From Glutamicibacter soli (lineage in GTDB: Bacteria > Actinomycetota > Actinomycetes > Actinomycetales > Micrococcaceae), in assembly GCF_003309065.1 (NCBI RefSeq), contig NZ_POAF01000001.1:372001-436000 (forward strand): a stretch of 64,000 nt of DNA, in the 5' to 3' direction. Positions 8,725 to 31,597 of this stretch are shown here, piece by piece. Positions within the stretch are counted from its first letter, which is position 1. The number at the start of each line of letters is the position of its first letter. Below the pieces are notes generated by a model. The model saw only the letters and a list, made by a program, of their open reading frames with translations. It was not told the origin of the DNA and did not search any database. The position numbers and the translations under genes are program-made.

Positions 8725-8757
8725 GTAATACGTGGGTAATGGACTGCCCCGCATCAT
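8725..8757 (+). promoter_or_regulatory. Candidate SARP-type promoter E (GTAAT direct repeats)
   Basis: Two GTAAT repeats start at 8725 and 8736, exactly 11 bp apart. The second heptamer (GTAATGG) is followed by nine bases and then CATCAT (8752-8757), a -10-like hexamer, 78 bp before the first gene of the DUF692 operon. The same layout occurs at 15935, 17096, 21351 (minus) and 31555. A partly overlapping inverted repeat TACCCA-N8-TGGGTA (8719-8738) gives an alternative reading as a dimeric operator. Confidence 0.55.
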
Positions 8758-8835
8758 GTGTTCCAGGAGTGCCGCAGCAACTCCCGCGGATAGCGCTTTG
8801 CGCAGCCCGCCCACGTCGAGAACCAGGAGACTGCG

Positions 8836-9063
8836 ATGGAACGACTGAACCGATCGGTATTGCTGGAAGACAAAACCATCAGGGTGACGGTTCCCGCCAC
8901 GGCGATGTACGACTTGGACCAGATGCAGAAAATTCAGCGCGAGGTGCTGGGACGGCTCGGCTGCCCCGCCTGTTGCTCGGGCTTCGACATCCGTTTCGAT
9001 CTGGCCCGGAGGTTCATGGTCGATGAGGATCTTGTTGTCCGCCCGATGGACGAGCTGGCTTGA
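8836..9063 (+). CDS. Small CPACC-motif protein, candidate precursor or partner of the DUF692 protein
   Basis: 75-residue protein with a strong ribosome site (AGGAGA, 5 bp before the ATG). The first 40 residues are a plain beta/helix leader-like stretch (DKTIRVTVPATAMYDLDQM). They lead to GCPACCSGFDIRFD with three cysteines at 43, 46 and 47, then a charged tail. There is no signal peptide or membrane segment. Its stop TGA overlaps the TTG start of the DUF692 gene (TTGA), so the pair is translationally coupled. DUF692/MNIO enzymes act on cysteines or C-terminal residues of small ribosomal peptides brought by a partner protein. The conserved-looking Cys cluster beside such an enzyme makes this the obvious candidate substrate. 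It could instead be a recruitment or metal-delivery subunit. Function is inference. Confidence 0.75.
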   Translation: MERLNRSVLLEDKTIRVTVPATAMYDLDQMQKIQREVLGRLGCPACCSGFDIRFDLARRFMVDEDLVVRPMDELA

Positions 9064-10520
9064 TTCCGCTCACCGCTCTGCCCGAGCTCGGCGTCGGAGT
9101 GATCTACTGGCCTGCCCTCGACGGGGTGCTCTCCCGGACGGACAACGGCGTGGACGTGCTCGAACTGGAACCGCAGGCCTTCTGGTTCCAGCCCGGGCCC
9201 GACACACACGGGTACATGCTGGATGAAGCGGTGTTCAGCCACCTCGCCGAGGCTCCGCAGACCTGCCTGGCCCACGGTGTCGGCTTCCCCGTCGGAGGAA
9301 CCTGCCCACCGGACCCTGAACAGGTTGATGCATTCGTGCGCAGCATTATCCGATTGGGCGCCCCGTGGGCCAGCGAGCACCTGAGTTTCAATCGGCTGCG
9401 GCAAGCCGGCGGCGAGATCGACATGGGTTTCCTGCTTCCCCCGATCCAGTCCCCCGAGTCGGTGGCTTGCGCGGTGGACAACATCCGCTTCCTGAAACGC
9501 CACCTGCCGGTGCCGCTCGCCGTCGAAACCGGGGTCAACTATCTCAAGCCCTTGCCCGGCGAAATGCCGGACGGAGAGTTCTTCCGCTCCGTCGCCGAAC
9601 AGGCCGATTGCGGGATCCTCCTGGACCTGCACAATCTCTGGGCCAACGAACGCAATGGCCGCCAGCCCATCTGCGAGGTGGTCAACCAGCTGCCGCTGGA
9701 GCGGGTCATCGAAATGCACCTGGCAGGCGGACAGGAATACGGCGGGTACTGGGTCGACGCGCATAGCGGGCTCGCCGACCCGGAACTGATGGACATTGCC
9801 CGGCAGGTGGTGCCCCGGCTGCCGAATCTGAAGGCCATCACCTTCGAGATCATGCCCCAGTTCCTGCTGGCCTACGGCATCACCGATGATGCGCTGATCG
9901 ACCAGTTCGCGCAATTGCGGAAACTGTGGCAGTTGCGCGGCACGGCGGTTTCCGAGGCACCGGTTCCGGGTCCGCGCCGAGCGGGAGCCCGTCCGGGCCC
10001 GGTGCTGCCTGCGCCTGGCCAATGGGAGGAAGCGCTGGCTTCGGTCCTGCTGCCGCACCAACACACCGCTCCGGGTTTCGCCGAATCACTGGCCGGGGAT
10101 GACGGCGCCGGGGTCATCCGCAAGTTGATTTCCGCCGCCAGGGCCGGAAAGGTCGCCGACGCACTGCCCCTGACCACGCGCCTGCTGCTGCTCACGCTCG
10201 GCGCCGCCCGCGTGGATCAGGTGCTGGATGACTTCTGGGCATGCACCCCGTCGGAGCAGATGGCTTCGAATGAGGCGCGCAAATTCATCGAATGGGCGCT
10301 GTCCGGTTCGCTCGGGTCCGAGGTACCGCATCTTGCCCAGGTCTCGGCATTCGAGCTGGCCGCCAACCAGGCGATCATGACCGGCCGCGAGCAACTGGTC
10401 GACTTCACCATGGACCCCGTCGAGCTGCTCGGCGCGCTGCGTGCGGGACGGATGCCGTCGAAGCTTCCCGCAGGCAGATATTCGTTGACGGTGACTCCAC
10501 CCGCAGCGCCATCCGCCTGA
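9060..10520 (+). CDS. DUF692 / multinuclear non-heme iron oxidase (MNIO) with C-terminal partner-like domain
   Basis: 486-residue protein. Residues 1-290 form a DUF692 TIM barrel, the family of MbnB, BufB and TglH, which use two or three irons to modify peptides. The ligand-type residues are all present: His72 (AHGVG), Glu106-His107 (SEHLSF), Glu156 and Asn160 (ETGVNYL), Asp189, His191 and Asn192 (LLDLHNLW), His220 (EMHLAGG), Asp233 and His235 (VDAHSG), and Glu263 (FEIMPQF). A Pro/Arg-rich linker (about 298-320) joins a 165-residue C-terminal domain (WEEALASVLLP ... FIEWALSG ... VSAFELAANQAI). That segment resembles the DUF2063/BufC-type partner normally encoded separately. The TTG start at 9060 overlaps the preceding stop, so translation is coupled to the CPACC protein. 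Iron content, substrate and product are unknown. Confidence 0.85.
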   Translation: MIPLTALPELGVGVIYWPALDGVLSRTDNGVDVLELEPQAFWFQPGPDTHGYMLDEAVFSHLAEAPQTCLAHGVGFPVGGTCPPDPEQVDAFVRSIIRLGAPWASEHLSFNRLRQAGGEIDMGFLLPPIQSPESVACAVDNIRFLKRHLPVPLAVETGVNYLKPLPGEMPDGEFFRSVAEQADCGILLDLHNLWANERNGRQPICEVVNQLPLERVIEMHLAGGQEYGGYWVDAHSGLADPELMDIARQVVPRLPNLKAITFEIMPQFLLAYGITDDALIDQFAQLRKLWQLRGTAVSEAPVPGPRRAGARPGPVLPAPGQWEEALASVLLPHQHTAPGFAESLAGDDGAGVIRKLISAARAGKVADALPLTTRLLLLTLGAARVDQVLDDFWACTPSEQMASNEARKFIEWALSGSLGSEVPHLAQVSAFELAANQAIMTGREQLVDFTMDPVELLGALRAGRMPSKLPAGRYSLTVTPPAAPSA

Positions 10521-10562
10521 AGGGACCGGGCCGAGAATTCCGCGGCACTTCGCGGGTGCGGA

Positions 10563-10940
10563 TTATTTGGGCAGCGAGCTGAAGGCGGCGCGCAGGTACT
10601 TCACCGCGGTCTCCTCGTCCACGTTCCACATCTGCGAGATCCGCGCCAGGTCGGCGGCGGCGTCGCTGACTTCCTGGTCCCCGCGGTCCTCCGCGGCCTG
10701 GACTACCGTCCCGTGCCTGCCGCGGGTGGCGACCGCACCCTGCAGCTCCAGCTCCTTGTAGACCTTGGCGACAGTGTTCACTGCAAGGCCCAGCGATCCG
10801 GCGAGCGCGCGCACCGAGGGAAGCTTGGTTCCCGGGGCGAGCCTGCCATCGGAGATGGCCGTCAGAATCTGCTCGCGCACCTGCTGATATGGAGCTACCG
10901 TTGATTTCTGGTCGAGGCTGACAAAATCCAGGTCGGTCAT
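10563..10940 (-). CDS. GntR-family transcriptional regulator (YtrA-like, short)
   Basis: 125-residue regulator: an N-terminal winged helix (PYQQVREQILTAISDG, LPSVRALAGSLGLAVNTVAK, then the wing GAVATRGRHGT) and a short helical tail of about 45 residues instead of a full FadR or UTRA effector domain. This size is typical of the YtrA subfamily. Start ATG 10940 has GGAG 6 bp upstream. Such regulators usually repress a neighbouring ABC transporter, but none lies here, so its target is not apparent. It is divergent from the metallo-hydrolase gene with 79 bp between starts, which makes that gene a possible target. It converges with the DUF692 operon. Confidence 0.87.
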   Translation of the reverse strand: MTDLDFVSLDQKSTVAPYQQVREQILTAISDGRLAPGTKLPSVRALAGSLGLAVNTVAKVYKELELQGAVATRGRHGTVVQAAEDRGDQEVSDAAADLARISQMWNVDEETAVKYLRAAFSSLPK

Positions 10941-11019
10941 GCAACGCTCCGTTTCATAGATTGGATGTCGTATTCCGAGCCTATCGTGTACGCACCTGGT
11001 TTCCCCGTAGTCTGGGGAC

Positions 11020-11673
11020 ATGAATGAACTTCTTCTGGACGATGTAAGCATCCGCTGGATCTCCGTATCCGAGATGAGCAACAACGTGTACCTGATCACC
11101 GAGAGGGCCAGCGGCAAGCAGCTGCTGGTTGATGCGGCCGATGATTTCCCCGCCATTGAAGAGTTGATCTCCGCCGCGTCCGAGGACGGACCGGACACCG
11201 AGATCGTTGCCATCGCGACAACCCACCAGCATTGGGACCATGTGCGCGCGCTGGCCGCGGCGGTCGAGAAGTACCCGGTCACCACCTATGCGGGGGCCGA
11301 CGACAGGCAGGGCATCGCCGACGAGTCGGGTGTGAAGATCAGCCATCCGCTCTCCCATGGAGAGAAGATCCAGCTGGGCGACGTGGTCATCGAGGCGATC
11401 CACCTGCGCGGCCACACCCCGGGATCCATCGCCTACGCGCTGGTGGATTCCTCGGGCCAGCCGGTGATCCTCAGCGGCGACAGCCTGTTCCCGGGCGGGG
11501 TGGGCAACACCTGGAAGGATCCGCAGCGCTTCAGCTCGCTGATCGCCGACGTCACCGAACGCATCTTCGACCGCTTCCCCGACGAGACCAAGGTCCTCCC
11601 CGGCCATGGCGGTACCACGGATCTGGGCACCGAGCGTCCGCACCTGGATGAATGGCGCGAACGCGGCTGGTAG
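11020..11673 (+). CDS. Metallo-beta-lactamase-fold hydrolase (glyoxalase II-like)
   Basis: 217-residue MBL-fold enzyme. The zinc motif HxHxDH is HQHWDH at residues 69-74. A later His in RGHTPGS, Asp in SGDSLF and His in LPGHGG complete the binuclear site. The length and the PGSIAY and PGHG segments match glyoxalase II-type thioester hydrolases, but true GloB C-terminal glutathione-binding residues are not seen, and actinobacteria use mycothiol. It is probably a general or mycothiol-linked hydrolase. It is cytoplasmic, with no signal peptide. It starts 79 bp from the divergent GntR gene and converges on an acetyltransferase gene. Confidence 0.87.
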   Translation: MNELLLDDVSIRWISVSEMSNNVYLITERASGKQLLVDAADDFPAIEELISAASEDGPDTEIVAIATTHQHWDHVRALAAAVEKYPVTTYAGADDRQGIADESGVKISHPLSHGEKIQLGDVVIEAIHLRGHTPGSIAYALVDSSGQPVILSGDSLFPGGVGNTWKDPQRFSSLIADVTERIFDRFPDETKVLPGHGGTTDLGTERPHLDEWRERGW

Positions 11674-11697
11674 GAACCCTCAGGCGGCTGCCGCAGG

Positions 11698-12183
11698 TTA
11701 TCCGGCTGGCGGCAGCTCCTGGAAGTACAGCAGCATGCGCCACTCGCTGCCCGGCTCGCGATTGGCGAAGCCGTGGCGCTCATAAAAGCGCCGCGTTCCG
11801 GTGTCGTCCTCGTCCACGTTGATATGCAGCTCCAGGCTGCCGCGCCGCTTCAGTTCCTGGAGCAGGCAGCTGACCAGGGCTGACCCGATGCCCCGGCCGC
11901 GCAGGGCGGGTTGCACGTAGAGTTCGTCGAGCACCGCCAGCGGCCCGTCGAAATAGATGGTGGGCCGCAGGGTGAGCAGCGCGTGCCCCACGAGGCCGTG
12001 CCCATTTTGGGCGGCGACGGCGAAACACTGCGCGCTGGCCAGCATGGACTCCAGACGCCGCGCGAGCACCTCAACCGGCGGACACGGCGAATCGAACTCT
12101 CGATTGAAGTCGGCTTGCAGCCGGGCCAGATTCAGGCAGTGCTCCGGTGCCGCAAGAAAGGCATCGTACGCGTCCATGCACAC
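11698..12183 (-). CDS. GNAT-family N-acetyltransferase
   Basis: 161-residue acetyl-CoA-dependent acyltransferase. The acetyl-CoA pyrophosphate loop is RGRGIGSALVSCLL, preceded by the beta4 strand AVLDELYVQPAL and followed by LHINVDEDDTGTRRFYERHGF, the usual motif B with the catalytic-loop Tyr. I take the GTG at 12183 because GGAG sits 6 bp upstream; an ATG two codons later (12177) is the alternative. Substrate cannot be predicted. It runs opposite to the hydrolase on its left and has a separate gene for a methyltransferase on its right, both minus or convergent, with no clear operon. Confidence 0.85.
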   Translation of the reverse strand: MCMDAYDAFLAAPEHCLNLARLQADFNREFDSPCPPVEVLARRLESMLASAQCFAVAAQNGHGLVGHALLTLRPTIYFDGPLAVLDELYVQPALRGRGIGSALVSCLLQELKRRGSLELHINVDEDDTGTRRFYERHGFANREPGSEWRMLLYFQELPPAG

Positions 12184-12248
12184 AGTATGCTCCGCTTGGC
12201 CCGGTCGCGCCAGAGCCGGTGGCCTGCCGGGTGGCAGGACGCGCGTCG

Positions 12249-13040
12249 TCAGCCGAGCTTGCGGCCGATCATGAAGATGCGGCGGAACGGGAAGTTCGTG
12301 ACTTTCGTTCCGTCAGGTCCGGCGAACGAGGGATAGTGTGCCGAGATCTGCACCCGGTAGTCATCCTCGAAGCGCTGGTAGTCCTCGGCGCTCAGCGCGG
12401 CCTTGATCGGCAGCAGCGCGGTGCCCCGCACCCAGTCGAGGATCGGGTCCTCGCCGATCATCACCTGCTGGTAGGTGGTCTCCCAGACGTTCGCCTGGAA
12501 CCCAGCCTGCAGCAAGATGCGCTGGTACTCGTCAGGTTCCCCCACCACGTCGTCGTGGCGCAGCACCCCGACCAGCTTGTCCGCCCAGGCGGCGCTGTCG
12601 GCGACCTGGCGCATCACCGCATGGGACGGGGAGCCGAAGTTCCCCGGCACCTGGATGGCCACATAGGCTCCGGGTTTCAGCTCATCGAGCCACACCCTGA
12701 GCAGCTCGCGGTGCCCCGGCAGCCACTGCAGCATGGCGTTGGAGAACAACAGGTCAGTGTCCGGGTCCGGATGCCAGTGCATGGCGTCGGCCAGCGCGAA
12801 TCCCAGATTCGGCTCGTGCTCGCTGCCAGAGGCGCGCTGGATCATTTCCCGCGAGGAGTCCAGACCCGTGACCTGCGCCTGTGGCCAGCGCTGGGCCAGC
12901 AGCCGGGTCATGTTTCCCGGCCCGCAGCCCAGGTCGACAACCTTCGCTGGGTCCAGCTCGCCCAGCTGGCCGAGCAGGTCCTTGTAGGGGCGGCCGCGGT
13001 AGTCGGCGAATTCGGTGTACTTTGTCGGGTCCCACTTCAT
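12249..13040 (-). CDS. Trans-aconitate 2-methyltransferase-like SAM methyltransferase
   Basis: 263-residue class I methyltransferase. The N-terminus (MKWDPTKYTEFADYRGRP) and overall length match the Tam family, which methylates trans-aconitate, a spontaneous by-product that inhibits aconitase. The SAM-binding glycine motif is VVDLGCGPGNMT, followed by the acidic strand end (GLDSSREM) and LLFSNAMLQWLPGH. ATG 13040 aligns with the usual start of the family; in-frame ATGs at 13052 and 13070 would add 4 or 10 residues. It is divergent from the helicase gene. Other small-molecule carboxyl methyltransferases share this fold, so the substrate is inferred. Confidence 0.85.
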   Translation of the reverse strand: MKWDPTKYTEFADYRGRPYKDLLGQLGELDPAKVVDLGCGPGNMTRLLAQRWPQAQVTGLDSSREMIQRASGSEHEPNLGFALADAMHWHPDPDTDLLFSNAMLQWLPGHRELLRVWLDELKPGAYVAIQVPGNFGSPSHAVMRQVADSAAWADKLVGVLRHDDVVGEPDEYQRILLQAGFQANVWETTYQQVMIGEDPILDWVRGTALLPIKAALSAEDYQRFEDDYRVQISAHYPSFAGPDGTKVTNFPFRRIFMIGRKLG

Positions 13041-13116
13041 ATTCCAGAGCATATTCGCGCGGCGCGTCATCGCCTAGCCCGTGGTCACAGTTCGCAAAGG
13101 ATAGGCTTGGAGCATC

Positions 13117-15651: not shown

Positions 15652-15746
15652 GTCCCTCCCACTCCCCCGCACCTGCGTGCTTTCTACGGCCCGCGGCAGC
15701 GCCAGCAGCTCTGGCCTTGCCGCGGGCCGTGTCGTAGGATTTGGCC

Positions 15747-15938
15747 ATGAACGGTCCGCGGCTGCGCCTGTGCGGCGCACTGATCCTCCTGCCGACCCTA
15801 GTGCTGCTGCTCAGCGGCTGGTCGGTGCTGTTCTCCGCCGAAGGCGCGGTGCCCACCATCGTGCAGTTCGCCCTGCTCGCCGCAGGCCTGGCCATGGTGT
15901 ACCGGGGCGAGAATCCCCCGGCCCAAGCCGGCGGGTAA
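15747..15938 (+). CDS. Small two-helix membrane protein, unknown
   Basis: 63-residue protein with two hydrophobic segments (GALILLPTLVLLLSGWSVL and TIVQFALLAAGLAMVY) joined by a short polar turn, and a proline-rich tail. AGGA lies 7 bp before the ATG. No family is recognised. Its TAA stop (15936-15938) overlaps the first GTAAT repeat of the promoter for the next gene, so it is not obviously part of that unit. It may be a small orphan membrane protein; a chance open frame cannot be excluded. Confidence 0.5.
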   Translation: MNGPRLRLCGALILLPTLVLLLSGWSVLFSAEGAVPTIVQFALLAAGLAMVYRGENPPAQAGG

Positions 15939-15967
15939 TGCTCCGGTAACGCTACAGCGCCCATCCT
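15935..15967 (+). promoter_or_regulatory. Candidate SARP-type promoter A (GTAAT/GTAAC direct repeats)
   Basis: GTAAT at 15935 and GTAAC at 15946 are 11 bp apart. The second heptamer (GTAACGC) is followed by nine bases and CATCCT (15962-15967), a -10-like hexamer nearly identical to that of site E. The start codon of the GHSAG-protein gene is 42 bp further on. The core GTAATGCTC is also present in site D. Confidence 0.6.
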
Positions 15968-16009
15968 TTGTGCCAACACCGCGTTCGCGGCACCGCAAAG
16001 GAGCACCCC

Positions 16010-17086: not shown

Positions 17087-17095
17087 TCCCGGCGC

Positions 17096-17139
17096 GTAAC
17101 GCCGGGGTAATAACCGGGTAACGACGCTCCGGCTACGCT
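17096..17139 (+). promoter_or_regulatory. Candidate SARP-type promoter B (three 11-bp direct repeats)
   Basis: GTAAC (17096), GTAAT (17107) and GTAAC (17118) lie at an exact 11-bp period. The last heptamer (GTAACGA) is followed by nine bases and TACGCT (17134-17139), which fits the -10 pattern TAnnnT. The downstream gene begins 98 bp later. AT-containing GTAAY words are rare in this GC-rich sequence, so three in phase are unlikely by chance. Confidence 0.62.
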
Positions 17140-17237
17140 GGAGCCTCCACGCGGCCGACGCGCCCGAACCCGGGCGGCCGACCCGGTATCCACCGGCTAC
17201 GGCACGGGCGTTGGCCTCAGCATGAGGGGGAAAAATC

Positions 17238-18110
17238 ATGGCGGATATCAATGAGGGGACCGATCTGGTCTTCGACCGGCTGCTAGCGGCCCGGCGCGAA
17301 GAGGTCGTCGCCCTGCAGAAGGCGCAGGCCGACCGGCTGGCCGACGTCGAGACGCGCGGGCAGCGCAGCCTGGCCGCGCTGCAGGACTCGCTGCCGGAAT
17401 CCCTGGCCTCGTACCTGGGCAGCGATTCCTCCGCAGAGGAAGCAGCGGCGAAGGACATGAAGTCCTGCGCGGCAACGCTGGCCGAGCAGGCGCCGCGCGA
17501 ATCTACGGCGCTCTCCGCGGTCATGGGCAACGGGCCTTCCGCGGCGGCGGTGGGCTGGCTGACCCCGTACTACGGCACGCTACACGGTTCCAACGGGGCC
17601 ATCGCCTGGCAGGGCTACAACCCCGGCAACATCGACGCGTCCTGCTGGGCCAGCGGCGCCGGCTCGGGGCTCTTCGGCACCGGCGCCGGCTCGTTCACCC
17701 TGTACATGGACTGGTGGTTCACCTTCCGCGCCCCGGAGAACCGCAACTACGCCCAGACCATCTACGTCCCGTTCAACGGCTTCTACATCGTGCGGGCGGA
17801 CGACGGATGGTTCGACTCCAAGGAGGCGAAGGTCAACATCTCGATGACCGCCCGCGGCTACCAGTACAACTACAAGCCGGCCGGCAGCGTGAACGTGCTG
17901 TCGACCGGGGATGACAACATCAACGTCAACGACCGCTTCGACGGCTGGCGCACGATGTACTATTCGGATCTGCTCGGTGCCGACCAGGCCTACCTGCTGC
18001 TGTCCGTCGCGCTCTACGTCTACGCGCGCGGCGGAGGCTCCAACGCCCAGCTGAACTTCGCCGACGGCAATGCCAACTACCTTGGCGTTCCGCTCGTCTA
18101 CGTCAGCTAG
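17238..18110 (+). CDS. Unknown protein with helical N-terminus and beta-rich C-terminal domain
   Basis: 290-residue protein without a signal peptide. Residues 1-95 are helical, heptad-like and charged (LLAARREEVVALQKAQADRL), suggesting coiled coil. After a Ser/Ala linker, residues 110-290 are rich in Gly, Asn, Tyr and Trp (WLTPYYGTLHG, SFTLYMDWWFTF, IYVPFNGFYIVRADDGWF), typical of a beta-sandwich or lectin-like fold. No catalytic motif is seen. A GAGGGGG ribosome site precedes the ATG. It is the first gene behind promoter B and is followed by the metzincin-type protease gene, separated by a strong hairpin. It may be a substrate, an inhibitor or a structural partner of that protease. I cannot name the family. 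Confidence 0.7.
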   Translation: MADINEGTDLVFDRLLAARREEVVALQKAQADRLADVETRGQRSLAALQDSLPESLASYLGSDSSAEEAAAKDMKSCAATLAEQAPRESTALSAVMGNGPSAAAVGWLTPYYGTLHGSNGAIAWQGYNPGNIDASCWASGAGSGLFGTGAGSFTLYMDWWFTFRAPENRNYAQTIYVPFNGFYIVRADDGWFDSKEAKVNISMTARGYQYNYKPAGSVNVLSTGDDNINVNDRFDGWRTMYYSDLLGADQAYLLLSVALYVYARGGGSNAQLNFADGNANYLGVPLVYVS

Positions 18111-18117
18111 GCAGACC

Positions 18118-18188: not shown

Positions 18189-19214
18189 ATGAGCAATGAA
18201 AACCGGCCGCTGTGCCTGACCAAGCCGATCGTCCAACGCGAGCTTCCGGCCGGTCTGCCGGACCTGCGGATGCGCCTCATACGGGTGCTGTCCAAGGTCT
18301 GGGTCAATGAGACCGAGCTGCACTACTTCTTCATCGACGGGCCCGAAGCGCAGCGCGAAGCCGTGCGCCAGGCCTTCGCCGAGTGGAAGGCCCTGCCGCT
18401 GGGCCTGAAGTTCACCGAGACCACCGACCGCGGATCCTCTGAAATCCGCATCGCCTTCGACCAGGCTGACGGATCCTGGTCCTATGTGGGACGCGACCTG
18501 CTGGGCATACCCGCCACCGAAACCACCATGAATTTCGGCTGGGACCTGACCGACGACTACGGGCACACCACCGCCTTGCATGAGATCGGGCACAGCCTGG
18601 GCCTGCCGCACGAGCACCAGAACCCGTTCTCCGGCATCGTGTGGGACGAGGACGCGGTCTACAAGTTCTTCACCGGGTCCCCGAACTTCTGGACGCGGGC
18701 GCAGACCGAGCAGAACGTGCTGCACAAGTTCAGCGCGCAGGAGGTGGACGGCTCCCCGTGGGATCCGAACTCTGTCATGGAGTACTGGTTCCCCGCAGGC
18801 CTGATCGTGCAGCCCGCCCAGTATTCCGGCGGCCTGGAACCTGCCGGAGGGCTCTCGGACCAGGACAAGGAGTGGGCCAAGAAGTTCTACCCGGCCACCA
18901 CCGCCGCCGTCACCGAGCTGAAAGCCTTTGAATCCAAGGTGCTGCAGCTGTCCGCCGGGCAGCAGGCGGACTTCACCATCGTCCCGGACGCCTCGCAGGA
19001 CTACACGATCGCCACGTTCGGCCAATCCGACATGGTGCTGGTGCTCTTCGAGGACGATAACGGCTCGCTGCGCTACCTGGGCGGCGACGACGACAGCGGC
19101 ACCGGGCTGAACGCCCAGCTGAAGACCCGCCTGCTGGCCGGGCGCCGCTACGTGGTGCGGCTGCGCCTGTACTGGGCAGGCGGCAGCGGCAAGTCAAGCA
19201 TCATGTACTGGTAG
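18189..19214 (+). CDS. Metzincin-type zinc metalloprotease, no signal peptide
   Basis: 341-residue metalloprotease. The extended zinc motif HExxHxxGxxH is HEIGHSLGLPH at residues 131-141 (His131, Glu132, His135, His141), with the Met-turn SVMEY about 60 residues later; together these mark the metzincin clan. The catalytic domain covers about 1-235. The last 100 residues (LKAFESKVLQLSAGQQADF ... YVVRLRLYWAGG) look like a PPC/lectin-type beta domain. ATG 18189 is selected by GGAG 6 bp upstream. Unlike most metzincins it has no Sec or Tat signal and no Cys-switch propeptide, so it either acts in the cytoplasm or leaves by another route. It follows the beta-rich gene behind promoter B. Confidence 0.86.
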   Translation: MSNENRPLCLTKPIVQRELPAGLPDLRMRLIRVLSKVWVNETELHYFFIDGPEAQREAVRQAFAEWKALPLGLKFTETTDRGSSEIRIAFDQADGSWSYVGRDLLGIPATETTMNFGWDLTDDYGHTTALHEIGHSLGLPHEHQNPFSGIVWDEDAVYKFFTGSPNFWTRAQTEQNVLHKFSAQEVDGSPWDPNSVMEYWFPAGLIVQPAQYSGGLEPAGGLSDQDKEWAKKFYPATTAAVTELKAFESKVLQLSAGQQADFTIVPDASQDYTIATFGQSDMVLVLFEDDNGSLRYLGGDDDSGTGLNAQLKTRLLAGRRYVVRLRLYWAGGSGKSSIMYW

Positions 19215-19288: not shown

Positions 19289-19948
19289 CTAGGCCGGACG
19301 GCCCGTCTGATCGGTCTTGAACGACTGGGTCTGGAACTTGTTCAGGAATCCCAGCAGACTCCCGTCTGGCTTGAGCACGATGGTGCCGCCATCCTGCCAG
19401 ATCCAGTTCTCCGCATCGTGCCCGCCGCCCACCGGGTCGCCCTGGTTCTGGTGCACGTTGTGCACTCCCAGCCCGCTGGAGAACGGCTCGCCGAACACGA
19501 AGAACCGGGTGCCCGCATAAATCACGCTTTCCAGCTCGGTCAGCGCCTGGAACCCGGTACCGCTCTTCCACGGCGGGTTCCAGCGCAGCCAGGCCAGCAG
19601 CCGGTTCAGGCAGCTTGAAAAGCGCAGCAGGTGGACGATGACCGGCGGGTGCAGCACCGCGGCGCGGATGTAGTCCAGCGCCCCGGAGGACGGATCGGAG
19701 GCCAGCGGGTGCCAGCCGTCGGCTAGGGAAGACAGCGCCGCGAAGTCCAGCGCGCGCAGCCGCACGGTGCGCCACTGCACGCCGTCGGGCATGTTCTTCG
19801 GATCCACGTCGATGGCGCACTTGTAGTTGCCGGCCGGCGCGTGGATCACCAGGTTGCCGTGGTAGTAGCGCCCGAAGTCATCCGGCGGGTCCCGGTAGTA
19901 GTCGTGCAGGGTCCCGATCAGCACCCCGTACCCGTTGGCCAGCGGCAT
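19289..19948 (-). CDS. DUF2278 (YukJ-like) family protein
   Basis: 219-residue soluble protein. The N-terminus LANGYGVLIGTLHDYYRD, the internal strand NYKCAIDVDPKN, and the C-terminal VHNVHQNQGDP ... WIWQDGGTIV ... FLNKFQTQSF match the DUF2278/YukJ group, whose biochemical role is not known. YukJ-type proteins are often found near secretion, effector or peptidase genes. The gene starts 27 bp after the stop of a membrane-protein gene, so both should be on one mRNA from promoter D. A phosphodiesterase-like or ligand-binding role has been suggested for relatives by fold only; no catalytic residue is claimed here. Confidence 0.8.
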   Translation of the reverse strand: MPLANGYGVLIGTLHDYYRDPPDDFGRYYHGNLVIHAPAGNYKCAIDVDPKNMPDGVQWRTVRLRALDFAALSSLADGWHPLASDPSSGALDYIRAAVLHPPVIVHLLRFSSCLNRLLAWLRWNPPWKSGTGFQALTELESVIYAGTRFFVFGEPFSSGLGVHNVHQNQGDPVGGGHDAENWIWQDGGTIVLKPDGSLLGFLNKFQTQSFKTDQTGRPA

Positions 19949-19975: not shown

Positions 19976-21154
19976 TCAGGCCCTTGCAGGTTCGTCGATC
20001 TCCCCGACCTGGTCTTGCACCCGCTTGGCCTGCTTCTCCACCATGGAGGTGAACAGCTGCTGCGCGGCACCGAAAATGACCGCCCACGCGATGATCTGCG
20101 GGGCGCTGTCGAGGTCTGAGAGGCCGGGGAAGAATCCTCCGCGGATCAGCAAGAGTCCGAATACGGCGGTCAGCCCGCCCAATGGCAGCTTCAGGAAAGC
20201 CAACGCGATCGCAAGGTTGAAGGGCGTCGCCGTGCCGCCGACCTTCCTGAAGGAACTGGCTGCCGTGATGGCAGCGCCAACCATGCCAACGAAAATCAGC
20301 AGGAATATATCCGCCTTGCCGGCCGTCTGCGCGATCACCGCATCCCGGTCGAAAACTGCCCTGTTCTCGGCGGCGACGGATTCGCTGCTCTTGCCATCTG
20401 CTTCGGATGTCGTTCCGCCGGCGCCATCCCCGGTGGCAGCAAGGGTTGCCGGGAGCGGACTTTCGTTGCTCGGGCACACCACGACGTTTTTCCCTTCCGG
20501 GTTGAAGCAGATCGCCAGATCGGTCGGCCTGGCCACTCCCCAGAGCCCCAACCCGATGCCCAGAATGAGCAATACGACGCTCCAGACGCTCAAGCCCCGA
20601 TGGAAACTGAGCATTCGCGCATACTCCCGGCGGTAGGCCATATTGGCTGCGATGCTCGCGCTGATGATTTCCTCGCGGATATGCGGTTGCTGCAGATAAG
20701 CCCGTTTCTTGTCAGCGGTGGTGTGGATCTCCTCCAGGTCCTTGACCAGCTGTTCGAACGAAATTCGCTGCGGATCCATCGTTGCGAGGTGGTTCCTGAT
20801 ATCGGTCCGGATCTTGGGCAGCTTCCCCATGAGATAGTCGGTGTCTCCGCGCCGCAACATCATGGACTCCGCCGCGTGCAGGTGGGCCAGGACGCTGCCG
20901 ATGAGCGTGGTGCCCAGCATCATCTTGAACCGCGGATTGGTCAGCCGCGCCTGCGCGGTCTTCAGGTGCTGCTTGATCGCCTCGTCCAGCTTGGCGACAT
21001 CCTGCACCGCGCTGTTTTGATGGACCGCCGGCGGCGGCAATTGGGATAGATAGCGCGCTTCATCCTGCAAGGCGGTGAGATCCGAAACGACTATCGGAAA
21101 ACGCTGCTGGGCCATGTTTGCGGTGAATTGCGGAAGGGGGCCGGTGTTCGGCAT
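19976..21154 (-). CDS. Membrane protein with long cytoplasmic helical N-terminal domain, unknown
   Basis: 392-residue protein. Residues 1-200 are soluble and mainly alpha-helical (LDEAIKQHLKTAQARL, FEQLVKDLEEIHTTADKKRAYL). A first transmembrane segment (VWSVVLLILGIGLGLWGV) is followed by an external Ser/Gly/Thr-rich loop. Two or three more helices then appear (IFLLIFVGMVGAAITAAS, PFNLAIALAFLKLPLGGLTAVFGLLL, IIAWAVIFGAAQQLF). ATG 21154 has GAGGT 7 bp upstream; an in-frame upstream extension lacks support. It leads a two-gene unit with the DUF2278 gene under promoter D. No family is recognised; it could anchor or export something for the soluble partners. Confidence 0.72.
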   Translation of the reverse strand: MPNTGPLPQFTANMAQQRFPIVVSDLTALQDEARYLSQLPPPAVHQNSAVQDVAKLDEAIKQHLKTAQARLTNPRFKMMLGTTLIGSVLAHLHAAESMMLRRGDTDYLMGKLPKIRTDIRNHLATMDPQRISFEQLVKDLEEIHTTADKKRAYLQQPHIREEIISASIAANMAYRREYARMLSFHRGLSVWSVVLLILGIGLGLWGVARPTDLAICFNPEGKNVVVCPSNESPLPATLAATGDGAGGTTSEADGKSSESVAAENRAVFDRDAVIAQTAGKADIFLLIFVGMVGAAITAASSFRKVGGTATPFNLAIALAFLKLPLGGLTAVFGLLLIRGGFFPGLSDLDSAPQIIAWAVIFGAAQQLFTSMVEKQAKRVQDQVGEIDEPARA

Positions 21155-21318
21155 GGTCAGTACCTCGATGATCTCCCACGGCTCAGGGAAATGCATAGCA
21201 TTTCAACCCGCCGGCGCAGCTCTGCGCGTCGCCGGCAGGATACAAGGAACCAGCAACACCACCCCGGTGCAGGACCGCGAGGCCCGCCTGGGAGATACGC
21301 CGGTACACGGATAAGCCC

Positions 21319-21351
21319 AGTGTCCGCCGGCGCCCGTTACACGAGCATTAC
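21319..21351 (-). promoter_or_regulatory. Candidate SARP-type promoter D (GTAAT/GTAAC direct repeats, minus strand)
   Basis: Read on the minus strand, GTAAT begins at 21351 and GTAAC at 21340, 11 bp apart. GTAACGG is followed by nine bases and GACACT (21324-21319), a -10-like hexamer. The core GTAATGCTC is identical to site A. The membrane-protein gene begins 164 bp downstream. Confidence 0.55.
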
Positions 21352-21386
21352 CAGGATCTGCCGCATCCCCGGTCCTGCCGGCGCGG

Positions 21387-22139: not shown

Positions 22140-22201
22140 GGATTCAACCTTAAGACTGGTCACCGACGAATTGGCGGCGCGGCGGCGGTAAGCTTGAGCA
22201 C

Positions 22202-23985: not shown

Positions 23986-24009
23986 GCCTGGCTGGCGCGT
24001 TCAGGCCGT

Positions 24010-24462: not shown

Positions 24463-24565
24463 GATGTGTACCCTAGCAGAATGCGTTAATGGTGGATTCC
24501 GGACAGCGAAAAGCCCGCCTGACCGGCCCTGGTCGGGCAGGCGGCGGGCAGTTCGCCTGACGTTG

Positions 24566-25618: not shown

Positions 25619-25644
25619 GGAAGAGCGACCTTTCATTGCAGGGT

Positions 25645-25790
25645 ATGGCTGATATTCGCAAGTCTCTCCGCCGGCCGCACCGCGATCCGGCGGTGCGAAA
25701 TTCGGCTGCTGCGCCCGGCGAATCGCCGTTGATTCGCGTGCTGACGTTCACAGCATTTGGGATACTCCCCTACGTCCAATCAACCATTGT
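25645..25790 (-). ncRNA. yybP-ykoY-type manganese riboswitch upstream of terC
   Basis: On the minus strand the leader contains GTAGGGGAGTATCCC (25773-25759) and, about 90 bases later, CGGCGGAGAGACTTGCG (centred at 25665), with the segment ACGTCAGCACGCG between. These are the two conserved internal-loop strands of the yybP-ykoY family, which binds Mn2+, and they occur in the correct order just before a terC/alx gene, its commonest partner. The ends of the element are approximate. No long T-run is seen before the gene, so control of translation is more likely than termination. Confidence 0.8.
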
Positions 25791-25857
25791 ATCCCACAGC
25801 GAAATCACAGCCCCGGGTGGGGCGTCCTACGCCAAGTCAGACATCCGGGCGCGCGAA

Positions 25858-25880
25858 ACCCCGTCCCGGCGGGGATTTTT
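25858..25880 (-). terminator. Candidate terminator downstream of uvrB
   Basis: A short GC stem (CCCCG ... CGGGG) with flanking GACGGGG/CCCCGTC complement lies 40 bp after the uvrB stop, read leftward, with TTT after it. The plus strand shows a run of five T after the same stem, so polarity is not certain. Confidence 0.4.
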
Positions 25881-25919
25881 GTCCGGACGGGGTTGACGTT
25901 TTGCCGAAGGCAGTGCCGC

Positions 25920-28007: not shown

Positions 28008-28016
28008 ACATCTAGG

Positions 28017-28525
28017 CTACGCCCTGGGTCCCGACTCTTTGCGCGCTGCTGGCGATTGGCTGAAAGAATCCAGCAATCGGTTAATCGCCTCGATGCGCTC
28101 GGGGGTCTCGGGATGGGGTCGGCGCGCCATGGCATCGGCCCAGTCGAAGTAGCGCTTTGCCCCATCAAGCACGGCGGGGATGAGAACCGGCGGCCCGATG
28201 CGATCCGGTACCCCGCCCAGCGAAAACCCGCGGCGTGCAGGTTCCCCGCAAGAGAGATTTCCGCGCAGAATGAGCCGCGGCCGGTGCCCATCGACATGGA
28301 TCCTTCCAGCGCTTCAAACAGCGCAGGCCAGGTCGCCCCCGTGTTGTTCCACAGTCCGGGTGGCATAAGTTGTCTGCCGAAATAGCGTTTCTGCACGATC
28401 CCGTCACCACCGTAGGGGTTTTTCGCCGCCCGCTTGAACCAGAGGTCCGCGGCCCAGCCAAGTTCTTCCTCGACCGATGCCAGGGACTGGCAGCGGAATG
28501 CGGCGAATACCGCGAGGTCGGTGAT
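28017..28525 (-). pseudogene. Broken conserved-type gene, N-terminally truncated and frameshifted
   Basis: On the minus strand a protein-like frame opens right after a TAA at 28526-28528 (ITDLAVFAAFRCQSLASVEE, later PYGGDGIVQKRYFGRQ and WPALFEALEGSMSMGTGRG) but has no start codon at the beginning. Near 28200 the sensible reading jumps one frame and continues as AKRYFDWADAMARRPHPETP ... AINRLLDSF to a TAG at 28017-28019. Both halves have coherent protein composition, so I read this as one gene that lost its 5' end and gained an indel. A shorter in-frame ORF starting at GTG 28396 would ignore the frameshift. The family is not recognised. Confidence 0.6.
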
Positions 28526-28589
28526 TTATGCAGTCCCAGCAGAAAGGACTCAGCTCAACACATGAATGCATGCTCAGCGTCACGCCCGT

Positions 28590-29069
28590 TCATGCCAGGT
28601 CACCGGCGCGGCGTGTGACAGCGCGCGCCACACCCGCCGGGTAGCCTGCGTTCACCAAGGCCACGAGCTCGGTGGTGCCACCGAGAATTCAGCCGATAGG
28701 TCCGTCGTTTTCAACGGCGCCGCGGACCGTGCTGACGGCGACGTCGGCCAATGCATTACTGCCGGTGATCGTCATGGTTACCTCGGCGGCCCGGGATGAT
28801 TCGAGCACATGGTTCGAGGCCCGCCAGATCCCCGGCACATCGCCGATCACCTCAACGTGCGTCAGTCGCAGCAAGCGGTGGCGCAGCCGGAGGCATTCCA
28901 GTGTGCCCGGCTGCAACGCCGCGCGATTGCAGCCTCGTTGCTCACCTGCGCCGACCTTCGATATGTGGAAAATGTAGGCTCCGGCCGCCGGGGAGCTGTT
29001 CACCAACAACTTCAGTTTGCGGTGTTGCTTCGCATGGGCATCGCGTTCAGCTATGAAGCCCCGGGGGCT
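28590..29069 (-). pseudogene. Broken gene of unknown function with an in-frame TGA
   Basis: A minus-strand frame is open from 29069 and reads FIAERDAHAKQHRKLKLLVN ... LTHVEVIGDVPGIWRASNHV ... AVSTVRGAVENDGPIG. It then meets TGA (at 28689-28691), and continues in the same frame as ILGGTTELVALVNAGYPAGV to TGA at 28590. A glycine codon GGA changed to TGA would explain the break. A truncated product starting at TTG 29009 is conceivable. No family is recognised. It belongs to the decayed stretch 28.0-31.6 kb. Confidence 0.5.
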
Positions 29070-29499
29070 TCAATGCCCTAACTTTTTCTGCATCCACTAT
29101 CTTTATCCTTCACACGGGTTGCCAATGTCTTCCCATCGGTTAAATAATCGAATCCGCAGATCCATTCAGCAAATACCCGCATTACCGAATCGTTATTCGG
29201 GACCAACATCGGAGGCCAAGGAAAATACCGGCGAATTACCGAAAAAGCCTTGGTGTCGGGGATCGGGTCGAGTTGTTTCGGGGCCTATGCACGTGCGCGC
29301 GGGGAAGCCGGGCGAGTGCAGATATTATCGCGTACGATGTCATGCGTTTTCAGCCGGAGCTTTTCAACGAGGGTACGCTCCCGCGTTTCCCAATGTTCCC
29401 GCGGGCAGCAGGTGACCCAGACGACGCCCTGGATATGGGGTGAATCATGGGCCATTGTTGAGGTGGCGAAGTGTCGGAGTACTCACCTATGATCAAGCT
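29070..29499. other. Intergenic stretch with a possible gene fragment
   Basis: No complete gene is supported here. On the minus strand 29285-29449 reads as a protein-like fragment (HIQGVVWVTCCPREHWETR, LVEKLRLKTHDIV) without start, closed by TAG. The AT content rises around 29080-29200. I see no promoter, terminator or repeat that I would defend. Confidence 0.4.
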
Positions 29500-30138
29500 A
29501 TGCACAGGAAAATCCCAGCTTTCGCAACTATCATTACCGGCTTGTGGCTGGCCGGATGCAGCGCCCCAGGCGCGGAGGTGATCTCCCCCGAAGCCACTGA
29601 ATCCAGCGTCTACGAACCACTCACTGTGGAATCTGCAACGCCAGCGCCCATGCCAACGCCATCACCCACCGAGACCCGAAGCGATCGGGGGAATCTCGTG
29701 TTCCGAGTCGGGGACGACGTGAGCCTGAGCGACTACAGCGGGGCCGACTGGGCAACCCTGCGCCTTGAGAAGGTCTCCGCCAAGGTTAAGTGCACCGAGC
29801 CGTACCAAGAGCCGGTCGCCAAGGGAAACAAGCTCGTTGCTATGACTTTCTCGGCCAAGACGGAGGCGAGCCCTTCGGGTGACGCCGACTCGCTGTGGAT
29901 GGGCGCGTTTGCCTGGAAGTTCTACGACGACAATGGCGTTACCTACAACGGCGAACTGTCGAGCGACGCCACCTACTACTGCCTCCCAGAGAAGAAGATG
30001 CTGCCGAGCGAGATGGGTCCGGGCGAGAAGGCCACTGGTGTTGTGCTGGTTGAGGTGCCGGACTTGAAAGGCACCGTGGCCCACGAAGATTTCGGTATCG
30101 AGTTCGACCTAGCAACCGCCCTCAAGGAGAGTGACTGA
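29500..30138 (+). CDS. Secreted lipoprotein, DUF4352-like
   Basis: 212-residue predicted lipoprotein. The start MHRKIPAFATIITGLWLAGC has a lipobox LAGC, with Cys20 as the lipidation site. A Pro/Thr/Ser linker (ESATPAPMPTPSPTETRSD) then leads to a domain of about 140 residues with immunoglobulin-like strands (DVSLSDYSGADWATLRLEKV, KLVAMTFSAKTEA, EKATGVVLVEVPDL), resembling DUF4352/MPT63-type extracellular domains. Two cysteines (in KVKCTEP and YYCLPEK) may form a disulfide. It stands alone in the decayed region but its frame is intact. Function is unknown; a binding role at the envelope is the usual guess. Confidence 0.75.
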   Translation: MHRKIPAFATIITGLWLAGCSAPGAEVISPEATESSVYEPLTVESATPAPMPTPSPTETRSDRGNLVFRVGDDVSLSDYSGADWATLRLEKVSAKVKCTEPYQEPVAKGNKLVAMTFSAKTEASPSGDADSLWMGAFAWKFYDDNGVTYNGELSSDATYYCLPEKKMLPSEMGPGEKATGVVLVEVPDLKGTVAHEDFGIEFDLATALKESD

Positions 30139-30882
30139 GCCCATAGGGTGAATGTTTCCGAATCCTCGCAAGAGGACAGTCTTTATCTATGGAGGAGATA
30201 CAGGAGGTGGCTACTAGTTACCGTTTGATTTTTAGCTCACTGTTGAACTATCCCCCGCCAATAACCACGACGAGACGTTGGAAGCACCGGCAATACTTAT
30301 TGCTGGTGCCCTCGTTGTTTAAGGGATGCCGGGCGGGAGCCAGGCATCCCAAGCAAAGACCCGGTATCTAATTCAGGCAACGGCCAATGTCTTATGTGTG
30401 TAGGCAATTGCATGCACTAATTGAGCTGGCCCTTCTCGCTGCCTTCGCCTTCCGGAACAGGCAACGTGCTTTCAGTGCCAGCTGCGCGCGGAGCTCATTG
30501 GCAGAACTCCGGTTTCCGAAGCCAAAGGCAATGGTTGTATGCCTCTCTCGCGCGCAATCGTTCAGCTCCGGTCCGTCAGGCCCCAGGGCTGGATTTCTTT
30601 TCCCTTCGGGTCGGACGCAAGCGCCGGCGGGCTCGTTTTATGAAGGAGCAACAATTTCAGTCATTCTCTACTCAGAGCCGGCTGCCAGCCTTGCAGCGTG
30701 ATCCGCAACAAGTTCCGTTCGCGGAGGGTTCCTCTTGAAGTCATTGACATCTCCATGCAGGAGACCGAGGTGCTTCTGAATAACTACCGAGGGCAACAGT
30801 ATTGAGTTCGCCGGCTTCCACCTGACAAGGTGAATTCCGTCACCGAGAAGTACCAAGTAATGGCTTGGGTGGTGTCCACCGG
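30139..30882. other. Gene-poor stretch after the lipoprotein gene
   Basis: No frame on either strand has convincing protein character. Apart from the two hairpins at 30283-30350, I see no RNA gene or repeat. It lies within the decayed block, between the lipoprotein and the HNH fragment, and is probably eroded sequence. Confidence 0.5.
30283..30350 (+). terminator. Two successive hairpins downstream of the lipoprotein gene
   Basis: Hairpin 1 (30283-30308) pairs GCACCGGCAATA with TATTGCTGGTGC, 12 bp with one G-T, followed by a weakly T-rich stretch CTCGTTGTTT. Hairpin 2 (30323-30350) pairs GGGATGCC with GGCATCCC around a 12-base loop. The first could terminate the lipoprotein transcript, 145 bp after its stop. 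The second has no T-run. Confidence 0.45.
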
Positions 30883-30887
30883 ATTGA

Positions 30888-31106
30888 CCGGCGAGAGACG
30901 CTCCCCCAGACTGGCCTTCACAGTGGGCCTCCCCATTCGTACGCAATGCCTTTCAGTGCGTTCATGTCAGCGAGGAAAACGAGCAGCGATGCACCGAAAG
31001 CATCAAACTAGAATACGATCACATCGGAGATCGCGGCGACTACTGACTGGACAGCCTGCGCACCTTGTGCCGCTATGACCACGCAAAGCGTTCTGGCGGG
31101 CAGAGA
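30888..31106 (+). pseudogene. HNH endonuclease fragment with an in-frame stop
   Basis: The plus-strand frame reads WPSQWASPFVRNAFQCVHVS, ENEQRCTESIKLEYDHIGDR and GDY, then TGA (31044-31046), then LDSLRTLCRYDHAKRSGGQ. This is the layout of small HNH nucleases often found in phages: a Cys pair (QCVHV ... RCTE), the LEYDHI strand and the LRTLC..DHAKRSG helix. There is no start codon: an in-frame TGA lies at 30885-30887. It is a dead fragment, possibly from a prophage or mobile element. It abuts the IS110 remnant. Confidence 0.65.
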
Positions 31107-31129
31107 GGCACCCCATGTATTTTATCAAT

Positions 31130-31540
31130 CAACCTCTGTCAGGAGCATCGTCAAACGACCCGTCCCAGATCATCGCGAACAATACCGTCAGCCATCAGTG
31201 GAACAATGCGATGAGCGCTTGGTTGCGGCGTTTCCCTGGGCTCGTTTCCCGTTGTAACAGTCTCTGCTGGCTGGGTCGAAACAGGTAGACGCGAACGCCG
31301 AAAGGAACAACGCCCGTTTCAGGCGTTTGTTGCCTGAATGGTTGCCGCATTCGGACTTTGCCGATGGTGCCCGACTGCCGGATGACTGGAGCCAAGCCAG
31401 CATAGGCTGCGAACACGGCAGGACAGTCGAAGTTCTTGCCGGCGGGCTGAAGCTATGAAGATCGCGGTAATCCTGACCGCTGCCCCGTCATGAAGGTCAG
31501 AATCAGGTGAAGAGGGTATGCCTGACCTATGACTTCCACT
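31130..31540 (-). mobile_element. IS110-family transposase remnant (C-terminal part, multiple frameshifts)
   Basis: Read on the minus strand, the transposase C-terminal domain of IS110/IS116/IS902 elements can be traced across changing frames. The order is PLHLILTFMTGQ (near 31500), GKNFDCPAVFAAYAGLAPVI and RQSG (near 31400), GNKRLKRALFLSAFASTCF then DPASRDCYNGKRAQG in another frame, KRRNQALIALF back in the first, and LTVLFAMIWDGSFDDA after a stop. The catalytic N-terminal DEDD domain is missing. No terminal repeats are expected for IS110. The remnant ends about 15 bp before the repeat promoter C. Confidence 0.75.
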
Positions 31541-31554
31541 GGGTTACCAGCACA

Positions 31555-31597
31555 GTAATGCCGGGGTAACACCGCAGTAATTTCGCCGCGCGATAGT
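31555..31597 (+). promoter_or_regulatory. Candidate SARP-type promoter C (three 11-bp direct repeats)
   Basis: GTAAT (31555), GTAAC (31566) and GTAAT (31577) have an exact 11-bp period. The last heptamer (GTAATTT) is followed by eight bases and GATAGT (31592-31597), a -10-like hexamer; the offset is one base shorter than at the other four sites. The M6 protease start codon is 227 bp further, leaving a long leader. It lies just beyond the IS110 remnant. Confidence 0.6.

Follow-up and report, generated by a model that had tools for sequence, protein, structure and literature searches.

The 64,000-nucleotide stretch of the Glutamicibacter soli genome analysed here (hereafter, the window) contains five separate promoters that carry GTAAY words repeated with an 11-bp period, and also encodes a SARP-family activator, which raises the question of whether these promoters form one regulon and which protein reads them. 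According to a sequence-only reading, strongly favoured by the comparisons below, the five sites are very probably SARP-type activator promoters of one regulon that would be run by the SARP encoded at 35095-35793 and would switch on five operons. The sites are as follows.

8725..8740, plus strand: operator 1, GTAAT-N6-GTAAT; -10 CATCAT at 8752-8757
15935..15950, plus strand: operator 2, GTAATGC-N4-GTAACGC; -10 CATCCT at 15962-15967
17096..17122, plus strand: operator 3, three GTAAY words 11 bp apart (pairs 17096+17107); -10 TACGCT at 17134-17139
21336..21351, minus strand: operator 4, GTAATGC-N4-GTAACGG; -10 GACACT at 21324-21319
31555..31581, plus strand: operator 5, three GTAAY words 11 bp apart (pairs 31555+31566); -10 GATAGT at 31592-31597

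An exact scan of the window detects GTAAYN6GTAAY only at the five places that had been claimed (seven pairs), and 100 dinucleotide-preserving shuffles of the window contain no such pair. The gap between the last heptamer and the -10, previously given as 8-9 bp, is 9 bp at four sites and 8 bp at one: counted from the first base of the last GTAAY (offset 16 is 9 bp after the heptamer, offset 15 is 8 bp), CATCAT, CATCCT, TACGCT and GACACT start at offset 16, and GATAGT at offset 15. The sites thus show the two traits by which SARP-type promoters are recognized, direct repeats with an 11-bp period and a 3' repeat about 8 bp ahead of the -10. The -10 hexamers themselves are weak; among offsets 5-39, the named place ranks first at 17096, 21351 and 31555, second at 8725 and third at 15935. 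When the window is scored with a family matrix trained without it, the five sites are the top scorers. A candidate sixth site, at 29185 on the minus strand, is taken to be a chance match because its matrix score of 10.9 falls inside the 4.4-14.2 range of five shuffled windows and no counterpart is seen in G017.

The repeats are also confined genome-wide: no promoter-like exact pair lies outside the five window sites in 3.84 Mb. The genome, of 3,840,670 bases, holds 11 GTAAYN6GTAAY pairs, four of them outside the window. One of these is located in C7, in a sequence that we recognise as 16S rRNA; the others (C2:13479, C22:90931 and C23:52428) have no proper -10 at offset 16, where the hexamers are TGCCGT, GCCGAG and ATTTTG. 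The pattern extended by the A and T of the -10 has five exact matches in the genome, all at four of the window sites (31555 escapes it because of its 8-bp spacing), and four matches elsewhere when one mismatch is allowed.

The regulator and the genes downstream of the operators are the following.

8836..9063, plus strand: 75-aa ORF with GCPACCSGFD, a possible MNIO substrate or partner
9060..10520, plus strand: MNIO enzyme (PF05114, E 4.8e-36, residues 56-257 of 486) with a C-terminal extension of ~200 residues
16010..17086, plus strand: GHSAG hydrolase-like protein, no family match in searches
17238..18110, plus strand: 290-aa protein, no family match in searches
18189..19214, plus strand: metzincin metalloprotease-like protein (Astacin/Matrixin)
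19289..19948, minus strand: DUF2278 protein (PF10042, E 2.8e-42)
19976..21196, minus strand: membrane protein
31825..33546, plus strand: M6-family metalloprotease-like protein (TIGR03296, E 8.5e-48)
33582..33794, plus strand: 70-aa ORF similar to the M6 protein's C-terminal domain (43% identity)
33827..34072, plus strand: 81-aa ORF with three PxPMxLxxL-type repeats, 73% identical in G017
35095..35793, minus strand: SARP activator, 232 aa, OmpR-type DNA-binding domain and BTAD

Family searches gave no convincing match for the 75-aa ORF, and an analogous small ORF (GCAPCLSGLD) precedes the MNIO gene in G154 and G182. Structure models predicted from single sequences are uninformative for both the GHSAG protein (mean pLDDT of 33.5) and the 290-aa protein (37.1). 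The targets do not resemble an antibiotic cluster: they span 25 kb, are interspersed with uvrB, terC and helicase genes, and include a single natural product-like unit, the MNIO pair. The earlier description of the targets as lacking signal peptides holds for the ten window ORFs by a crude hydropathy test (19976-21196 being a membrane protein) and is hardly borne out as an enrichment, given that, by a similarly crude test, an N-terminal hydrophobic core is found in 8 of the 80 target proteins vs 15% of the 433 called genes in the same loci.

The assignment of the regulator as a SARP is backed by several lines of evidence. The BTAD domain (PF03704) scores 44.9 bits (cut-off 22.1) and is the only BTAD match in the whole genome; with Pfam alone, BTAD is the only domain reported for this protein. 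A profile of 13 SARPs aligns with residues 49-275 (227 residues) of AfsR chain 8hvr (E 7.6e-12), and the single sequence used as a query retrieves no PDB chain at E <= 0.001. Among the DNA-contacting residues of AfsR, W74 and R87 are retained as W50 and R63 (numbering without Met), but Q48, T88, S91, R92, R94 and K95 are replaced by E27, V64, C67, H68, H70 and Q71. These replacements count against the SARP as reader of the sites, as does the position of its gene, which is located 3.5-27 kb from the operators and shares no operon with them.

A comparison of genomes was performed over 395 Micrococcaceae genomes, 95 with and 300 without a related SARP, using GTAAYGCN4GTAAY as the operator word and the reversed word as the control. 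The SARP-containing genomes carry 160 operator sites vs 57 control sites, and the SARP-less ones, 60 vs 120 (p=1e-20); the operator word thus exceeds the control only where a related SARP is present, which favours the SARP as the regulator. At least one site is present in 63 of the 93 SARP-containing genomes vs 50 of the 300 SARP-less genomes, with G000 (the window genome) and G017 left out (p=7e-20). Moreover, 40 of the 120 sites listed have a SARP gene no more than 5 kb away (expected, 0.48), or 38 of the 118 listed when two three-word operators are each counted once. Nearly all sites (127/132) fall outside called genes. In an alignment of 123 sites, from which G000 and G017 are excluded, a -10 of the form TAnAYT emerges unselected 9 or 8 bp past the last heptamer; the best -10 offset is 16 in 59 of these sites and 15 in 12, and it is 16 in 28 of the 62 sites of a held-out half. 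The placement persists in 100 flank-distinct sites.

Conservation of orthologous promoters bears out the proposal in Glutamicibacter protophormiae and, in part, in other genera. In Glutamicibacter protophormiae, all four shared operons (4/4) keep the repeats: operators 2, 3, 4 and 5 are retained in G017, with some spacer changes, and the MNIO operon and operator 1 are both missing. Of the 18 Glutamicibacter genomes, two, G000 and G017, have the SARP (E <= 1e-15), and the same two have the M6 protease. For GHSAG orthologs chosen by protein alone, exact upstream repeats are found in 14 of the 22 genomes with a SARP and in 0 of the 8 without (p=0.003), or in 12/20 and 0/8 when G000 and G017 are removed (p=0.008). 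In the stretch examined, even a one-mismatch repeat is absent upstream of the GHSAG ortholog in 6 of these 22 SARP-containing genomes; furthermore, 30 of the 95 SARP-containing genomes of the survey have no GTAAYGCN4GTAAY site, and therefore, not every SARP counted reads the word. The SARP-less G236 has a one-mismatch repeat ahead of its GHSAG gene. Repeats are also carried by two distant MNIO operons, at 35% identity, and the repeat of the DUF2278 ortholog in G046 begins 77 bp upstream.

These patterns bear on the other possible origins of the repeats. Chance or compositional bias is exceedingly improbable: although the family-matrix scores of 8725 and 17096 (13.7 and 14.8) are close to 14.2, the best of five shuffled windows, the exact shuffles, the conservation in G017, the genome-wide confinement and the family survey all speak against it. 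The boxes of PhoP and GlnR have an 11-bp period too, so another regulator with the OmpR fold, a PhoP- or GlnR-like response regulator, could read the repeats next to a SARP that is a mere neighbour. At afsS, PhoP also recognises the AfsR repeats, as stated in a passage of PMC10972967. This alternative is nevertheless improbable, given that the sites follow both the presence and the position of the SARP across genomes and that the 16 Glutamicibacter congeners without a SARP stay at the control level (8 sites vs 7 control), whereas one would expect most of the surveyed genomes to encode PhoP and GlnR.

A GTAAC-like word could also be taken for the -35 element of an ECF-type alternative sigma factor, in which case the promoters would need no activator. 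Such an arrangement is highly unlikely: the words come in twos or threes with a strict 11-bp period, a sigma-70-like -10 (TAnAYT) lies 15-16 bp past the first base of the last word, and the sites are linked to SARP genes.

With the SARP as the preferred reader, the 11-bp period would place neighbouring GTAAYGC words one turn apart on the same side of the helix, where SARP monomers would bind them and pair side by side; the bound protein might then hold the sigma factor over a promoter without a useful -35, allowing RNA polymerase to use the weak -10 placed 8-9 bp downstream. The predicted output would be five operons: the MNIO enzyme with the small Cys ORF; the GHSAG hydrolase; the 290-aa protein with the metzincin; the membrane protein with DUF2278; and the M6 protease with two small ORFs.

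The closest known arrangement is that of AfsR and afsS in Streptomyces coelicolor. The AfsR box at afsS, as described in a passage of PMC10936776, consists of 11-bp repeats at a distance of 8 bp from a poor -10, with no proper -35; the likeness extends to two direct repeats with the 3' one at about 8 bp from the -10 and to a SARP domain alignable over the 227 residues. However, AfsR is extended by NOD and TPR domains, and the words it recognises are CGTT(T/C)ATCG-like (again from partial text), whereas the 232-aa regulator here is a small SARP associated with GTAAYGC words and has different residues at the two base-contacting positions. In the relevant passages of PMC5930380 and PMC10972967, small cluster-situated SARPs and SARP-LALs use heptamers in twos or threes, usually separated by 4 bp. 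ActII-ORF4, DnrI and PimR (a SARP-LAL, CGGCAAG) share this layout but drive antibiotic clusters; the targets here, dispersed among housekeeping genes, are hydrolases, the MNIO pair and DUF2278, with injection machines added in some relatives.

In other Micrococcaceae genera, related SARPs accompany this operator, which there precedes genes for various hydrolases and TIR proteins and, in some genomes, contractile injection systems; in some relatives, GTAAY promoters stand ahead of contractile injection operons and of caspase-like and other hydrolases. The operator precedes sheath, tube, Pvc16 or hub genes in G356, G422 and G418 (the site ahead of the G422 sheath gene has a poor -10), and relatives of the window membrane protein come after the GHSAG gene in G307 and G346, of one other genus. 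A PF04984 sheath search of G000 gave no match, and the same search missed the G356 sheath gene too. From these targets, we infer a role for the regulon in competition or in a stress and cell-death response rather than in a classical antibiotic cluster. On balance, a GTAAYGC-reading branch of Micrococcaceae SARPs seems to command, instead of antibiotics, a shifting effector-like repertoire (metalloproteases, subtilases, GHSAG proteins, some of them caspase-fused, TIR proteins, MNIO-made peptides and contractile injection systems), which the window species seems to have kept without an injection machine.

The presence of the operator before injection genes in relatives recalls the actinobacterial injection systems, CISSc of S. 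coelicolor, SLP of S. lividans and the phage-tail cluster of S. clavuligerus. In the S. clavuligerus passage (PMC13102240), a SARP-family regulator is predicted to interact with phage-tail genes on the basis of gene neighbourhood and co-occurrence, so a SARP near an injection cluster is already in print; the operator word and the targets are new here, and that passage supplies neither an operator nor a target list. The partial text on S. lividans SLP names the regulator SlpR without giving its family, and the part of PMC13170358 considered does not link SARPs and contractile injection systems. Literature searches for SARP with direct repeat and Arthrobacter found no paper; those for SARP with Micrococcaceae returned only papers off the topic by title, and SARP with GTAACGC, none about a SARP regulator by title; PMC10100984, retrieved with SARP and Glutamicibacter, concerns, in its available part, a Streptomyces SARP.

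The SARP papers cited here deal with antibiotic activators of Streptomyces. With an operator word valid over a large part of another family, SARP targets can be read from the sequence in genera on which no study was found, and many proteins without an assigned function become tied to one switch; the operator and target list add to the single earlier hint, from S. clavuligerus, that SARPs accompany contractile injection systems.

Self-activation of the SARP as a general feature was considered and rejected: no exact sense-strand repeat occurs within 350 bp upstream of the gene in 44 SARP matches, a set that includes some genes covered twice by loci and some loci that end short upstream. An opposite-strand repeat lies upstream of the SARP gene in 5 of these 44 matches.

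An exact scan of the whole window for GTAAYN6GTAAY recovers precisely the five repeat sites of the sequence-only reading, with no others, and no such pair arises in 100 dinucleotide-preserving shuffles. The sites and the SARP gene are:

8725: operator of the MNIO pair
15935: operator of the GHSAG gene
17096/17107: operator of the 290-aa protein/metzincin genes
21351 (minus strand): operator of the membrane/DUF2278 genes
31555/31566: operator of the M6 cluster
35095-35793 (minus strand): SARP, a 232-aa predicted activator with an OmpR-type DNA-binding domain and BTAD

A -10-like hexamer lies at offset 16 from the first base of the last GTAAY at four sites and at offset 15 at the fifth, which bears out the spacing originally claimed. 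In the 3,840,670 bases of the G. soli genome, where the window lies inside contig C11, the exact scan yields 11 pairs, 7 of them in the window; one of the outside pairs falls within what we take, from its sequence, to be 16S rRNA, and the remaining three (contigs C2, C22 and C23) have no -10-like hexamer at the expected place. The genome-wide scan that the sequence-only reading had proposed confines promoter-like exact pairs to the window. When the A and T of the -10 are added to the repeat pattern, there are 5 exact matches, all in the window, and 4 matches outside it with one mismatch allowed.

The operator word is strongly associated with the SARP across the family. In a survey of 395 Micrococcaceae genomes for GTAAYGCN4GTAAY, with the reversed pattern as the control, the 95 genomes with a related SARP at E <= 1e-15 (SARP+) contain 160 sites vs 57 control matches, with at least one site in 65 genomes, and the 300 genomes without one (SARP-) contain 60 sites vs 120, with at least one in 50 (Fisher p = 1.2e-20 for site presence; 63/93 vs 50/300, p = 7e-20, when G. 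soli and G. protophormiae are excluded; these values overstate independence because the genomes are related). The pattern is missing from 30 of the 95 SARP+ genomes. Among the matches listed (120 sites in 40 SARP+ genomes, the same two excluded; distances to listed SARP genes), 40 sites have a SARP gene within 5 kb vs 0.48 expected under uniform placement in 4.3 Mb, and these sites are spread over 28 of the 40 genomes; the count becomes 38 of 118 when two three-word operators (three GTAAY words 11 bp apart) are counted once. Upstream of the SARP genes themselves (44 matches), there is no exact sense-strand repeat within 350 bp.

The 123 distinct sites from SARP+ genomes other than G. soli and G. 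protophormiae, anchored on the last word, give the consensus GCAGTAACGC-N-GCAGTAACGC, then TAnAYT 9 bp further; the GTAAYGC and GTAAY letters reflect the search pattern, which did not select for the -10 or for the GCA in the flanks. The best -10 lies at offset 16 in 59 of the 123 sites and at 15 in 12 (28 and 8 of 62 in a held-out half), and T-N4-T occurs in 100 flank-distinct sites 39 times at offset 16, 17 times at 15 and at most 13 times at each other offset from 8 to 39. When 9 sites from the window and G. protophormiae are added and genes are called with a home-made caller, 5 of 132 sites are inside a called gene; a gene starts within 700 bp of 89 (median 117 bp), and none is called for 43. 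With a matrix built from the 123 sites, the seven highest-scoring positions of the window (12.0-22.9) all belong to the five sites, but 8725 (13.7) and 17096 (14.8) score close to the highest value seen in five shuffled windows (14.2). A weak sixth match, ATAACGATTCGGTAATGC, is seen at 29185 (minus strand), with no counterpart in G. protophormiae.

Among 17 other Glutamicibacter genomes, only G. protophormiae has a SARP ortholog (93%), and the M6 protease has the same distribution, being present in G. soli and G. protophormiae alone of the 18 genomes; G004 gives a weak SARP match only, in a 997-aa frame. The conservation in orthologous promoters that had been proposed as a check holds at the operons shared with G. 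protophormiae, where the block is kept with operators before M6 and the 290-aa protein/metzincin (three words each), membrane/DUF2278 and GHSAG, and where the MNIO operon is missing together with its operator; it extends to other genera in part. GHSAG orthologs (E <= 1e-10), a test independent of the sites, occur in 45 of the 395 genomes, and 34 of these 45 are SARP+ vs 61 of the 350 others (p = 6e-15). In the best 30 of the 45, exact repeats precede GHSAG in 14/22 SARP+ and 0/8 SARP- genomes (12/20 vs 0/8, p = 0.008, without G. soli and G. protophormiae); with one mismatch allowed, the counts are 16/22 and 1/8, so that 6 of the 22 SARP+ genomes have no repeat. The single SARP- case, G236, has a one-mismatch operator with CATGCT before GHSAG and possibly a diverged or missed SARP. 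The GHSAG and SARP gene starts are 1.7-6.9 kb apart in 13 further genomes, picked for having both on one contig. MNIO relatives (E <= 1e-15), 35% identical, are found in only two others of the 395 genomes, the SARP+ genomes G154 and G182, which belong to a single genus; their operons have GTAACGGCCGAGTAAT with TTTAAT at offset 16 and, in front, a small Cys-containing ORF (GCxxCxSGxD) resembling that of the window. In the window (8836-10520), the small Cys ORF overlaps the MNIO gene, which encodes a long C-terminal extension; this could be an unstudied RiPP pair. A repeat begins 77 bp upstream of the DUF2278 ortholog of G046.

The SARP is the single BTAD (PF03704) match in the genome at E <= 0.001. 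As a single sequence, it has no PDB match reaching E 0.001; a profile of the SARP and 12 relatives aligns with AfsR of Streptomyces coelicolor over 227 residues. In this alignment (SARP residues counted without Met), W50 and R63 stand opposite AfsR W74 and R87, E27 opposite Q48, and V64 and H68 opposite T88 and R92, which contact bases according to PMC10936776; the changes at the contact positions Q48, T88 and R92 are consistent with the operator word being different. The same paper places the AfsR 3' repeat 8 bp from the -10 and the box centre at -29.5, with 8 of 11 bp contacted, a geometry matching the GTAAY sites to within a base or so. The computation shows the sites, geometry, confinement, conservation and SARP linkage; as in AfsR, SARP monomers would bind the GTAAY words and pair, and the bound SARP would take over the -35 role and recruit RNA polymerase.

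Some operators precede contractile injection systems. In G356 (locus L203), a three-word operator is followed by Pvc16, sheath, two gp19 tube, CIS_tube and hub-like genes, with a SARP adjoining; G422 and G418 each have a site before a sheath gene, the one in G422 with a poor -10. In G307 (L198), one operator is followed by a GHSAG gene, a gene for a relative of the window membrane protein, and a sheath gene, and the first two are also adjacent in G346 (L205), of the same genus; the window operons at 15935 and 21351 thus hold relatives of genes that are together elsewhere, once beside an injection machine. A search of 42 SARP+ genomes for the sheath family PF04984 gives matches in 9, and in 7 of the 9 the match lies, among the matches listed, within 45 kb of a SARP. 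G. soli yields none, an absence that is not firm because the G356 sheath went undetected in this search.

The proteins encoded downstream of the operators number 89, of which 8 come from the window and G. protophormiae; they form 41 clusters, and some are ordinary secreted or metabolic proteins.

Protein types among the 89 downstream proteins
527-aa protein with weak alpha/beta-hydrolase matches: 13
GHSAG proteins: 7, including 2 from the window and G. protophormiae
S8 subtilases: 6
Metzincins: 4
M6: 3, including 2 from the window and G. protophormiae
TIR proteins: 3, plus one TIR-nSTAND-WD40
Nonspecific nuclease: 2
Single ones, e.g. a matrixin

The GHSAG proteins of G034 and G209 contain a caspase domain (Peptidase_C14), and those of G307 and G346 have a borderline Peptidase_C1 (papain) match. 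The company of the targets in relatives, with its hydrolases, injection machines and proteins with caspase or TIR domains, suggests a possible role in competition or in a response to stress and cell death. Both the family of the activator and this kind of promoter are already known; the GTAAYGC word, its occurrence beyond Streptomyces and the set of targets were not found in literature searches, mostly at listing level, and are apparently new. In S. clavuligerus, an interaction of a SARP-family regulator with nearby phage-tail (injection) genes has already been predicted from neighbourhood and co-occurrence (PMC13102240).

The TIR-nSTAND-WD40 protein (904 aa; L219 in G164) has the operator about 160 bp upstream. 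For the window gene at 18189-19214, the top NCBIfam model, 'beta-glucuronidase AbsR1', falls short of its cut-off (402 vs 650 bits) and has a name that may be misleading, and Pfam indicates an astacin/matrixin-like metalloprotease. In the M6 cluster (31825-34072), the C-terminal 70 residues of M6 recur as a separate ORF (33582-33794, about 43% identity), and the next ORF (33827-34072) carries three PxPMxLxxL-type repeats.
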